From: an uncultured Bacteroidales bacterium
Lineage (GTDB): Bacteria > Bacteroidota > Bacteroidia > Bacteroidales > UBA932
DNA length: 10,312 bases
Direction of reading: 5' to 3'
Assembly: GCA_945874815.1 (NCBI GenBank)
Contig: CAMCIE010000028.1
Location: forward strand, 1 to 10,312
Shown: piece after piece, positions 7,159 to 9,841 of the stretch
Layout of the letters: each line of letters opens with the position of its first letter
Numbering within the stretch: position 1 is the first letter of the stretch
Notes under the pieces: generated by a model
Told to the model about the DNA's origin: nothing
What the model saw: the letters and a program-made list of their open reading frames with translations, nothing else
Databases searched by the model: none
Position numbers and translations under genes: made by a program

Positions 7159-9513
7159 TCAGAATCTGAACCGGGCCCCGAAGGAGAAGTTTCTTCCGAA
7201 TCCCCAGAAACCACGGAAGCTTGCGGCATCATGCGAAGCTCCGTCCTTGCCCCTTTCGATGAACCTGGTTCCGAGAAGGTTGTCTCCCTGAGCGAATATT
7301 GTAAGGCCAATACGGTCTTCTCTTCCGAAGGCTCTCCAACTTCCTGTCCATGAGACATTTGCCCCTAAAAGATGATATCCGGGAATGCGGTACGAAGGCT
7401 GGCGGTCGTCCGGATTCGTTCTTGTCAGAGGGTCGAAATCGGCATACATCCTGTCGTTGAACTGCCAGTTTGCACTGATCCGGAATCCGGCAGGAATGTT
7501 GGCTCCGACAGATGCACCCACCTGAGTCTGAGGGGAATCGGCAACGGGAAGGTTGTCGCAATATACATTCAGCTTGCCAATCTCCAGGCCCGAATAATCG
7601 TCATAGATAACGGCCTGGACATCATTTTTCCACCTCCAGTCCCCGAACGAAGCAAAAGCATTGATTTCAAGCCACTTGCCCACATTCTGGCTGAGGCTCA
7701 GCTCTGCTCCGTAATGGAAGGCGTCAAGGCCCCTGACCATATATCTTGTATCTTCGGAGTCGAGCTGTTTGTATTTGTCCGACATCAGGGATTTGTTTTT
7801 CCAATACGCTGCATAGCCGGTCAGTTCGACGCTGCCGCTTGTCCAGACCCACCGCCAGCCGACCTCCCCGAGGCTGTTTCTTTCGTTGCGGACATCCCTG
7901 GTGATTTCATTGTTCCCGGAGGAAAACCACACGTTGCTGTACGGAAGCCTGCTGTACCAGCCCCCGTTGGCATAGAGGCTGTGTCCACGGTTTATCTTCC
8001 ACAACACTCCGGCTTTCACGCTCGCTCCCGTGCCTCCTGCTGCTTCGCTGAGGACGTCGTCTCCGACATAATTATATCTGTCCCAACGTTTTATAAGGCT
8101 TCCGAAGACGGATGCACCAATGTTGGCGTTGAAGCGGCGTGAGGAATATGAGGCGCTGATATATGCCGTTCCATGGTGGATGTTCTTGCCGTTGTCGGTC
8201 CTGACATAGTCGCCGGCATGTTTTATCGGATTGCGTCCTGCCAGACCGGCAAGTGACTTGTTTTCATAGTCCTCGATCCAGAAATCCGCCCCGAGAAGGT
8301 CCGTGATCTGTTCCTTTTCCCATGTGTAGTAGATCTGTCCATGCAGGCCGGTTCCCAGAGTCCAATGCTCCGTGAGGGAATATTCCATGGTTGAAATGGC
8401 TCCCGCCTGAGTGTGTCCTGCCATGTACTGGCTGAGGATGTTGACAGCCGATCCGTCGTCATTGCGGTTATTTGCAATGGCTTCATCCCAGTCTATCTGG
8501 CCGTCCTTCATGAATGATGAGATGTTTTTTCCCTTGCTTTCGCTCCATCGTCCTCCACCGCTGGCAAGTGCAAGATAGAGGGAGTTTTTCATTTTTATTT
8601 TATCTCCGTCCCATATATACTGCAGGGTGAAATATGGCTTGAAATAGTTGTTATAGCTCAGGTTGAAGGCCTTACCATCCCTCATGCCCCAGTTCTTGCT
8701 GTAGCTCAGGCCATATTGTTCCACTTCCTCCAGACTCAGCCGGGTGCTTCGCTGTTCATGTTTTTCCGGAGATCCGAGTGCCGTGAAAATGAGAGAATGT
8801 TCCTGCCCTATTTTTTTGCTGACGTTCAGCATATAGGCGAATGAATTCACCCTTGTTGCGTCCACATAGCCGTTTCCCCCGACATAGGATGCCATCAGGT
8901 TCACCGCCCATCCCTTCGGGAGGGTTCCGCTGCTGATTTTGACAAATCCCTTGACCGTGCCATAGTGTGAGCCATGGACTCCGGCTTCTGCGGAAAAGGT
9001 CTCTGAAGGCGATTCAGTGATGATGTTGACCGAGCCGCCTACTGAACCGTCCGACAGGAGGGATGCTCCGACTCCTTTCTGGATCTGGACTGCGTATGTG
9101 GCATCGGCAAGGCCCATCCAGTTGTTCCAGTACATGCTTCCGGTCACGAGTCCGCTGATTGGGATTCCGTTCAGCAGGACGGATATGTTGTCCTGCCCGA
9201 AGCCCCGGATGTTCAGTTTTGCGTCGCCGTAACTTCCTGATTCAGAGGTGGCATAAAGACTCGGGATGCCACGGAGCATCTCGGGATAGGTCCGCTCGGT
9301 TGCGCGTTGCCTGAGTTTCTCACCGTCGATTGTCGTCAGCCTCAGCGGGCTGGACGTGACGCTTGCAAATGTGGATTGGATGACTGCCTCCTGGATTGAG
9401 AGGGTGTCTGAAACTGATGGCACATCGTTTTCGTGTGCACGGGCATCATGGGCGGCCACAATACTTGCCGCCATCAGAATTGTGATGCCCATAAGAAAGT
9501 GCTTTGTTCTCAT
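7159..9513 (-). CDS. TonB-dependent outer-membrane receptor under an FMN riboswitch (putative flavin receptor)
   Basis: The 784-residue protein has a signal peptide (hydrophobic 6-21, cleavage likely after ARA at 26), a probable TonB-box region (DTLSIQEAVIQS, 36-47), a plug domain (about 48-170) with ERTYPEMLRGIPSLYATSES-type start, LNIRGFGQ (100-107), VLLNGIPI (112-119) and GSVGGSVNIIT (156-166), then a long beta-barrel ending in the aromatic strand FSFGARFRF. It lacks the N-terminal carboxypeptidase-like domain common in Bacteroidota SusC-type receptors, and no susD partner lies nearby. Such receptors import scarce large or bound nutrients using TonB energy. The FMN riboswitch 41 nt upstream is the only substrate clue and suggests uptake of riboflavin or another flavin; this is inference. 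It stands alone and converges on the sigma cluster. Confidence 0.93.
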   Translation of the reverse strand: MRTKHFLMGITILMAASIVAAHDARAHENDVPSVSDTLSIQEAVIQSTFASVTSSPLRLTTIDGEKLRQRATERTYPEMLRGIPSLYATSESGSYGDAKLNIRGFGQDNISVLLNGIPISGLVTGSMYWNNWMGLADATYAVQIQKGVGASLLSDGSVGGSVNIITESPSETFSAEAGVHGSHYGTVKGFVKISSGTLPKGWAVNLMASYVGGNGYVDATRVNSFAYMLNVSKKIGQEHSLIFTALGSPEKHEQRSTRLSLEEVEQYGLSYSKNWGMRDGKAFNLSYNNYFKPYFTLQYIWDGDKIKMKNSLYLALASGGGRWSESKGKNISSFMKDGQIDWDEAIANNRNDDGSAVNILSQYMAGHTQAGAISTMEYSLTEHWTLGTGLHGQIYYTWEKEQITDLLGADFWIEDYENKSLAGLAGRNPIKHAGDYVRTDNGKNIHHGTAYISASYSSRRFNANIGASVFGSLIKRWDRYNYVGDDVLSEAAGGTGASVKAGVLWKINRGHSLYANGGWYSRLPYSNVWFSSGNNEITRDVRNERNSLGEVGWRWVWTSGSVELTGYAAYWKNKSLMSDKYKQLDSEDTRYMVRGLDAFHYGAELSLSQNVGKWLEINAFASFGDWRWKNDVQAVIYDDYSGLEIGKLNVYCDNLPVADSPQTQVGASVGANIPAGFRISANWQFNDRMYADFDPLTRTNPDDRQPSYRIPGYHLLGANVSWTGSWRAFGREDRIGLTIFAQGDNLLGTRFIERGKDGASHDAASFRGFWGFGRNFSFGARFRF

Positions 9514-9515
9514 AA

Positions 9516-9553
9516 AACCTTGACTTGTTACTTATGGCATACAATTCAAGGCT
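9516..9553 (-). promoter_or_regulatory. hairpin at the receptor start codon, candidate expression platform
   Basis: Between the aptamer and the ATG the minus strand carries AGCCUUGA (9553-9546) and UCAAGGUU (9523-9516), which pair through eight pairs including one G-U around a 22-nt loop. The stem ends 2 nt before the start codon and could block ribosome entry. A full U-run terminator is not present, so control of translation is more likely than of transcription. The pairing is seen; its switching is inferred. Confidence 0.45.
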
Positions 9554-9832
9554 GTCTTCTTCCATCCAGACTTACCTCACTTGTTTTCAGAATCTTTCAG
9601 GCCTCCCGGCACCTTTCCGGTCTCTTGTGGCTTTTGACTTTCGGGGTCTTTCAGGCCTCCTGACACCCTTGTAGTCTTTCGGGCTCTCAGGAGGCTTCAA
9701 TTTTCCTGTAAGCTATCAGCAGATTCTATTAAACAAAGCGGGGAACACTGTCGGTGCCGTAGTTCCAACGGCTCATGCCTTTCGGCTCGCGGACTATACC
9801 GCCGATCGGGATTCTCACCCTGCCCTGAAGTT
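9554..9832 (-). promoter_or_regulatory. FMN riboswitch (RFN element) with an expanded P6 arm
   Basis: On the minus strand the conserved RFN blocks appear in order: CUUCAGGGCAGGGUG and AGAAUCCCGAUCGGCGGU (9830-9798), AGUCCGCGAGCC, a short hairpin with loop UGGAACU closed by GCCGU/ACGGC, ACCGACAGU (9755-9747), and finally AAGUCUGGAUGGAAGAAGA (9573-9555). These match the FMN aptamer of the Bacillus rib operon and Fusobacterium block by block. FMN aptamers bind flavin mononucleotide and usually shut down downstream expression. The oddity is 173 nt (9574-9746) between the two P6 strands, where a loop of a few nucleotides is normal. The P1 stem is short here (CUUC/GAAG). The element precedes a TonB receptor gene, with a -7 box just upstream. 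Confidence 0.93.
9593..9695 (-). repeat. imperfect 54-nt repeat and hairpin inside the riboswitch insert
   Basis: On the plus strand TCTTTCAGGCCTCC starts at 9593 and again at 9647, followed in both by a near-identical G-CACC; the similarity fades after about 21 nt. The core CTTTC occurs five times (9594, 9613, 9638, 9648, 9676), giving GAAAG in the RNA. Within the second unit, GCCUCCUGA (9695-9687) pairs perfectly with UCAGGAGGC (9663-9655). Confidence 0.6.
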
Positions 9833-9841
9833 ATGCGGCCG

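Follow-up and report, generated by a model that had tools for sequence, protein, structure and literature searches.

A variant FMN riboswitch with an extended P6 arm upstream of TonB-dependent receptor genes in a Bacteroidales lineage

FMN riboswitches, a highly conserved class, serve as drug targets. The locus described here lies in a window of 10,312 nucleotides, the whole stretch analysed, from an uncultured Bacteroidales bacterium of the gut (assembly GCA_945874815.1, contig CAMCIE010000028.1), and has in common with the class (RFN element, RF00050) the conserved blocks, the six-helix plan and the position in a leader. It departs from the norm of RF00050 in holding 174 nt in L6 (2–3 nt in canonical relatives), in scoring below the family cut-off, and in standing before a TonB receptor and not before a recognised riboflavin gene. 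In the accessible part of PMC2258182, the loops of P2, P3 and P5 of FMN riboswitches are described as interrupted by a helix, and P6 is not named there. The closest known form is the L3-extended FMN riboswitch, in which a helix likewise leaves a docking loop at positions that are not conserved, often through a like junction (UUCC...GGU-R-AG), whereas the helix of the window is at L6 and is far longer and more variable. Expansion segments of rRNA, such as those of bacterial 5S rRNA presented in the accessible part of PMC7812874, are also insertions confined to particular lineages, with the layout of the core unaltered; the segment of the window sits in a riboswitch. The window element adds a new variant to a known class of riboswitch, and the expansion of its P6 arm is a real, lineage-wide feature.

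Aptamer core and L6 insert

The element occupies positions 9835–9556 of the minus strand and is, by its sequence, a variant of the FMN riboswitch, with FMN binding predicted. The core blocks, including the junction and the 3′ strand of P1, are all present in order on the minus strand, by eye and by pattern. The 5′ part of the aptamer (9747–9835) comprises the 5′ strand of P1, helices P2 to P5 and the 5′ strand of P6 (CAG, 9750–9748), and its last block before the insert is CACCGACAGT (9756–9747). The 3′ conserved block, AGTCTGGATGGAAGAAG (9572–9556), comprises the AGUC of L6, the 3′ strand of P6 and the 3′ strand of P1 (GAAG). This order of blocks supports the initial annotation, which had identified an FMN riboswitch with all conserved aptamer blocks present and the 3′ block belonging to the same aptamer. 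The P1 helix of the window is short, with only about four pairs. Just upstream of the aptamer, on the same strand, is a promoter-like box, TATCTTTG (9849–9842), which resembles the −7 promoter consensus of Bacteroidota.

Against RF00050, the window scores 59 bits, below the gathering cut-off of 66.2, and by score it falls outside the family; at that cut-off, Rfam reports nothing at the aptamer. The element is filed as an FMN riboswitch variant despite this score, because criteria of membership other than the score were also weighed. The RF00050 match stops at 9717, within the insert, and misplaces the 3′ block, because the model is unable to span 174 nt. Although covariance alignment shifts the end of the match in this way, it yields no separate aptamer, and the 3′ block stays with the same one. 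Forms with inserts of 20–55 nt have RF00050 matches above the cut-off that are long enough to reach the true 3′ block, and 17 of the 20 other expanded loci scanned exceed the cut-off. The three below it are L017, L074 and L022, the last being long in both P4 and P6, and together with the window they mark a blind spot of annotation. A second covariance model, R1, was built from 34 leaders, that of the window included, and was limited to the 5′ half of the aptamer because L6 had to be measured without help from P6; it scores the window, one of its own 34 training rows, at 98.5 bits.

The insert lies between CAGT (9750–9747) and AGTC (9572–9569) and by these flanks comprises 174 nt (9746–9573), within one base of the 173 nt (9574–9746) first annotated. 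Pairing between its ends carries P6 onwards, and folding of the arm to minimum energy recovers every stem proposed in the initial annotation: 9743–9738 with 9575–9580 (one mismatch, 9741/9577), 9737–9731 with 9581–9586 (one bulged U, degenerate by one register with respect to the 9736–9731 first proposed), and 9727–9721 with 9589–9595. The fold adds further pairs, for example UU (9745–9744) with AA (9573–9572). The arm as folded comprises P6 (CAG/CUG), a small internal loop, an end-joining helix in which 21 pairs are interrupted by one mismatch and some bulges (basal helix; 5′ strand within 9721–9745, 3′ strand within 9572–9595), and a branched tip. The basal helix and the 3′ conserved block overlap by one base, A9572. 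The tip contains a hairpin (9650–9700) whose arms, 9650–9668 and 9682–9700, form an inverted repeat with 79% complementarity, and the insert holds two direct repeat copies of 39 nt (9585–9623 and 9639–9677) that are 77% identical at a spacing of 54.

Compared with 500 dinucleotide shuffles, the folding energy of the insert has a z of −3.1 (p 0.008), and the insert forms 10 end-to-end pairs where the shuffles average 1.3 (p 0.008); for the insert with its flanks, the energy z is −2.6 and 3 of 200 shuffles fold equally well. The insert and its basal pairing are thus confirmed in the window. A hammerhead motif, considered from the repeated CUGAAAGA..CGAAA in the insert, was rejected: the spacing does not fit the consensus of the hammerhead core, and no such Rfam match appears at E ≤ 1.

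The junction at L6 and docking on L2

Residue numbers are carried onto the window through the F. nucleatum sequence. The residue identities that could be compared from the accessible parts of PMC3764141 and PMC7573352 agree with this mapping. As described in the accessible part of PMC3764141, the L2 T-loop receives A90 of L6 between its residues A21 and A22, a base pair joins C30 to G93 of L6, and A38 of L3 plays the corresponding part towards L5. The window has UGAGA in L2 (9813–9817, minus strand), the presumed dock of L6 by the role given in that source, and CAGU...AGUC in L6, but a G where the intercalating A90 is expected; the L3-extended locus L221 likewise has a G at the expected A position.

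The canonical L6 of relatives reads C(A/G)GU-(N)AN-AGUC, with one or two free places. The AGUC is kept in 19 of 19 arms and the C(A/G)GU in 17 of 19, counts that hold partly by construction, the parser having allowed few mismatches, but only one of 73 loci of the genus (L119) was left unparsed. The L2 T-loop UGARA is kept in all 21 expanded rows. These counts do not support the proposal of the initial annotation that L6 is displaced and its contact with L2 replaced.

The junction R-UUCC...GGUA-AGUC is found in 5 of 19 arms, and its GGUA-AGUC part in 9 of 19. Extensions of L3 occur in 24 of 27 parsed loci of the phylum, with the junction A-UUCC...GGUR-AG in 10 of the 27. By sequence and fold, the arm of the window behaves as the L3 type does: the helix exits its loop at unconserved places and the docking letters are kept. 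Since L3 and L6 are pseudo-symmetric partners with like junctions, the P6 extension would be the twin of a known kind of extension, and docking would persist. The extension would exit L6 where one or two positions are not conserved, between the T-loop-inserting base and AGUC; P6, the core of L6 and the docking on L2 would thereby be kept, with a helix of variable length pointing outwards. A coupling between an L2 bulge A and the P6 extension (UGARAAU in 11 of 12 rows of the window's receptor group and in 1 of 30 unexpanded rows) was dropped, as it could be a single event.

We therefore read the element as an ordinary FMN switch that bears a lineage-specific, hypervariable P6 expansion segment, with docking kept and no second function needed, and we put the probability of this reading at about 0.7; the arm probably leaves the FMN sensor itself working. 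Against it stand the score below the Rfam cut-off, the G at the place of the intercalating A, the P1 of about four pairs, and the dependence of the residue mapping on the F. nucleatum sequence used.

Distribution and variation of the arm

A scan of the genus with R1 gave a match in 73 of 400 genomes, and one locus was read from each of the 73. Little can be read into a genome without a match, since ten of several hundred candidates were scored in each and many of the genomes are incomplete. Loci were sorted by protein motif for ribD and by tblastn for the receptor. The P6 extension is present in 21 of 36 receptor leaders of the genus, that of the window included, the other 15 being canonical, and in none of 35 ribD leaders, all of which have 2–3 nt in L6; the arm of the window is thus not unique. 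One further locus (L123) has a canonical L6 and no gene called downstream. The one locus that could not be parsed even with a looser pattern (L119) has an FMN leader broken after P5 that runs straight into ribD-like coding sequence, through either a deletion or a join made during assembly. Candidatus Cryptobacteroides merdavium and Ca. C. intestinigallinarum fall within the genus of the window (identical leaders).

In the rest of the order, the extension is found in 0 of 87 loci, all with 2–3 nt in L6. The order scan matched 90 of 393 genomes, 86 of them outside the genus; the 87 loci are 84 that were fetched, three of which are places already among the earlier relatives, and three others. Four of the 84, on which the script failed, were read by eye, and all have 3 nt; a related receptor lies downstream in 35 of the 80 parsed by script. 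Across the phylum, RF00050 matched 28 of 392 genomes, that of the window included, and 25 of 26 usable loci are canonical (L225 and L229 among them; L234 is a chance match and L235 stops before P6). The remaining one, L233, has an independent P6 insert of 20 nt together with an L3 extension, and P6 extensions are therefore not unknown outside the genus. Among the loci read, long P6 extensions are seen only in receptor leaders of the window's genus. The initial parse missed 15 of 117 loci, of which 13 were re-read by eye and two (L018 and L041) had their flanks inspected; the window's 174 nt was entered by hand in the scripted counts, in which L035 stands at 2 nt, and a second weak match in G179 and one in G497 were left out of the reading.

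The 19 distinct arms range from 20 to 174 nt (lengths found: 20, 26, 36, 37, 39, 47, 49, 55, 72, 98, 99, 118, 124 and 174 nt). In a rapidly computed, unrooted tree of 51 receptor proteins, with SH-aLRT as the only support measure, some long branches and two rows less than half filled, the expanded state changes at least five times, four of these changes being forced by starred branches. On the window's side of one branch (support 97), 12 of 12 receptors are expanded, with arms of 20, 36, 36, 47, 49, 55, 55, 55, 99, 118, 124 and 174 nt. Arm length would thus appear to change fast, with a closed base as the main constraint. A coding insert was ruled out, the lengths not being held to multiples of three. 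As a separate observation, P4 is greatly lengthened in L022 and L028 (5′ halves of 204 and 161 nt, against about 81), and also in L012 and L025; in L022 and L028, the long P4 occurs together with a long P6.

The sister of the window, L023, has a receptor 93% identical and an insert of 124 nt with a corresponding basal helix. Between the two, three pairs of this helix change with pairing kept (C-G/U-G, G-U/A-U and U-G/C-G), one mismatch is found in the window only, and one pair is missing in L023; comparison of the two pair lists gave no double compensatory change, and the two-sequence consensus fold shows no broken pairs by construction. The tips of the two arms align poorly. The insert of L023 also holds direct repeats (35 nt, 89% alike, spacing 55), and the occurrence of such repeats in both inserts makes tandem duplication a likely contributor to arm growth.

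Folding energy is better than that of shuffles (p < 0.05) in 15 of 19 arms. End-to-end pairing is significant by itself in 4 of 19, short arms closing easily when shuffled, and the minimum-energy fold departs from the modelled P6 in four arms (L028, L066, L074 and L078). The four arms that fold no better than shuffles, the 15 that fail the end-pairing test alone, the four folds that lose P6, and the lack of a double compensatory change between the window and L023 all weigh against the expansion-segment reading. Relatives whose paired ends are not conserved had been named at the outset as grounds for giving up the paired continuation of P6; the expanded relatives keep their paired ends, with the above significance.

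The extension could instead be a selected module specific to the receptor leaders. It would add a second input, by binding a small RNA or a protein, or it would time co-transcriptional folding and so tune the switch, up to 174 nt having to be transcribed before the 3′ half of the aptamer emerges; either role would depend on shape or length and not on sequence. We consider such a module unlikely. The confinement of extensions in the genus to receptor leaders (none before ribD), their retention throughout the group of 12, and the better-than-shuffled folding of most arms all speak for it. The confinement could equally be descent, because the receptor leaders form one lineage, and 15 of the 36 receptor leaders of the genus do without the extension. 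No sequence is common to the tips of the 19 arms beyond close relatives (otherwise only short, weak matches), the lengths range widely, and Rfam at E ≤ 1 reports no family other than FMN in the window. The added binding site offered in the initial annotation as the other possible role of the arm therefore finds no positive sign.

The downstream gene and the switch

The presumed target of the riboswitch is a gene for a TonB-dependent receptor of 784 aa (7159–9513, minus strand; Pfam Plug match). The receptor has no relative among solved structures at E ≤ 1e-5, and NCBIfam gives nothing but plug-region matches far below the cut-offs. In named genomes, a complete FMN leader was found by script at 34 of 36 related receptor loci, the leader of L041 being cut by a contig end and L018 having none in the roughly 400 bases before the receptor; on this ground, the FMN-leader TonB receptor is a candidate for flavin import across the outer membrane in Bacteroidales. 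A search of mainly open-access literature returned no report joining an FMN or riboflavin riboswitch with TonB in Bacteroides or Prevotella, apart from one cobalamin title. The text of PMC4418817 does not mention TonB, and the accessible part of PMC3766115 gives no FMN riboswitch in Bacteroidaceae.

Between aptamer and gene lies a putative expression-platform hairpin, CCTTGAATTGT...ACAAGTCAAGG (CCUUGA...UCAAGG; 9518–9551, minus strand). The hairpin stops four bases short of the ATG at 9513, and it folds with about −10 to −12 kcal/mol, both in the window and in the other leaders computed. Its CCUUGAA can alternatively pair with UUCAGGG of the aptamer (9829–9823; −6.9). Of 51 receptor leaders, 37 have the corresponding GCCTTG(A/G)ATTG no more than 500 bases from the aptamer: 20 of the 21 expanded leaders and 17 of the 30 canonical ones, as counted with a looser pattern that recovers L001, L023 and L066. 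The riboswitch would most likely turn the receptor gene off when FMN is plentiful: with FMN present, the aptamer would hold UUCAGGG, the hairpin would form, and the start codon would be blocked or transcription ended; with FMN absent, CCUUGAA would pair with UUCAGGG and the gene would be on.

Among the ribD leaders, L083, L090 and L109 have a terminator hairpin, GCCCTGAGTGC...TCAGGGC. By eye, the aptamer's TCAGGGC offers an alternative partner for the 5′ strand of the hairpin, and this pairing is likely the switch of the biosynthesis operon. Loci L196–L198 have variant FMN leaders in which GATTCAAGAGGAGAGG...GGTATTCGAATC replaces the usual P1 and J1/2.

When the entire leader of the window is folded without ligand, the P6 extension (P6b) and the platform hairpin are formed, and P1 and the 3-bp P6 are not. 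This fold counts against the expansion-segment reading and would suit a riboswitch in decay, with P6 disrupted by the insert and FMN sensing lost, as would the low Rfam score, the short P1 and the G at the intercalating place. However, the core blocks are intact in both the window and L023, the platform element is kept in all 12 members of the group, and most of the expanded loci scanned (17 of 20) exceed the cut-off; we hold decay to be less probable again than a selected module. Least probable, and already disfavoured, is that the insert is an assembly artefact or came from a mobile or dispersed element that landed in L6, which would fit the internal repeats and the abrupt length gaps between close relatives (124 versus 174 nt), since no second full copy was found in the genome of the window (an assembly about 73% complete, with two short, weak matches of 21 and 15 bases at E 0.26 and 0.9) or in that of L023, the repeat copies differ by 23%, and extensions recur at the same site in separate assemblies with different sequences.

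In sum, an FMN switch with a lineage-specific expansion segment on P6 remains our preferred reading, and P6 arms of 20 to 174 nt within one lineage suggest that the docking loop L6 tolerates large helical insertions. The lineage provides a natural series for the effects of peripheral arms and of transcript length on switching. Were the arm to prove a second module after all, the leader would be a two-part switch for the uptake of flavins across the outer membrane.
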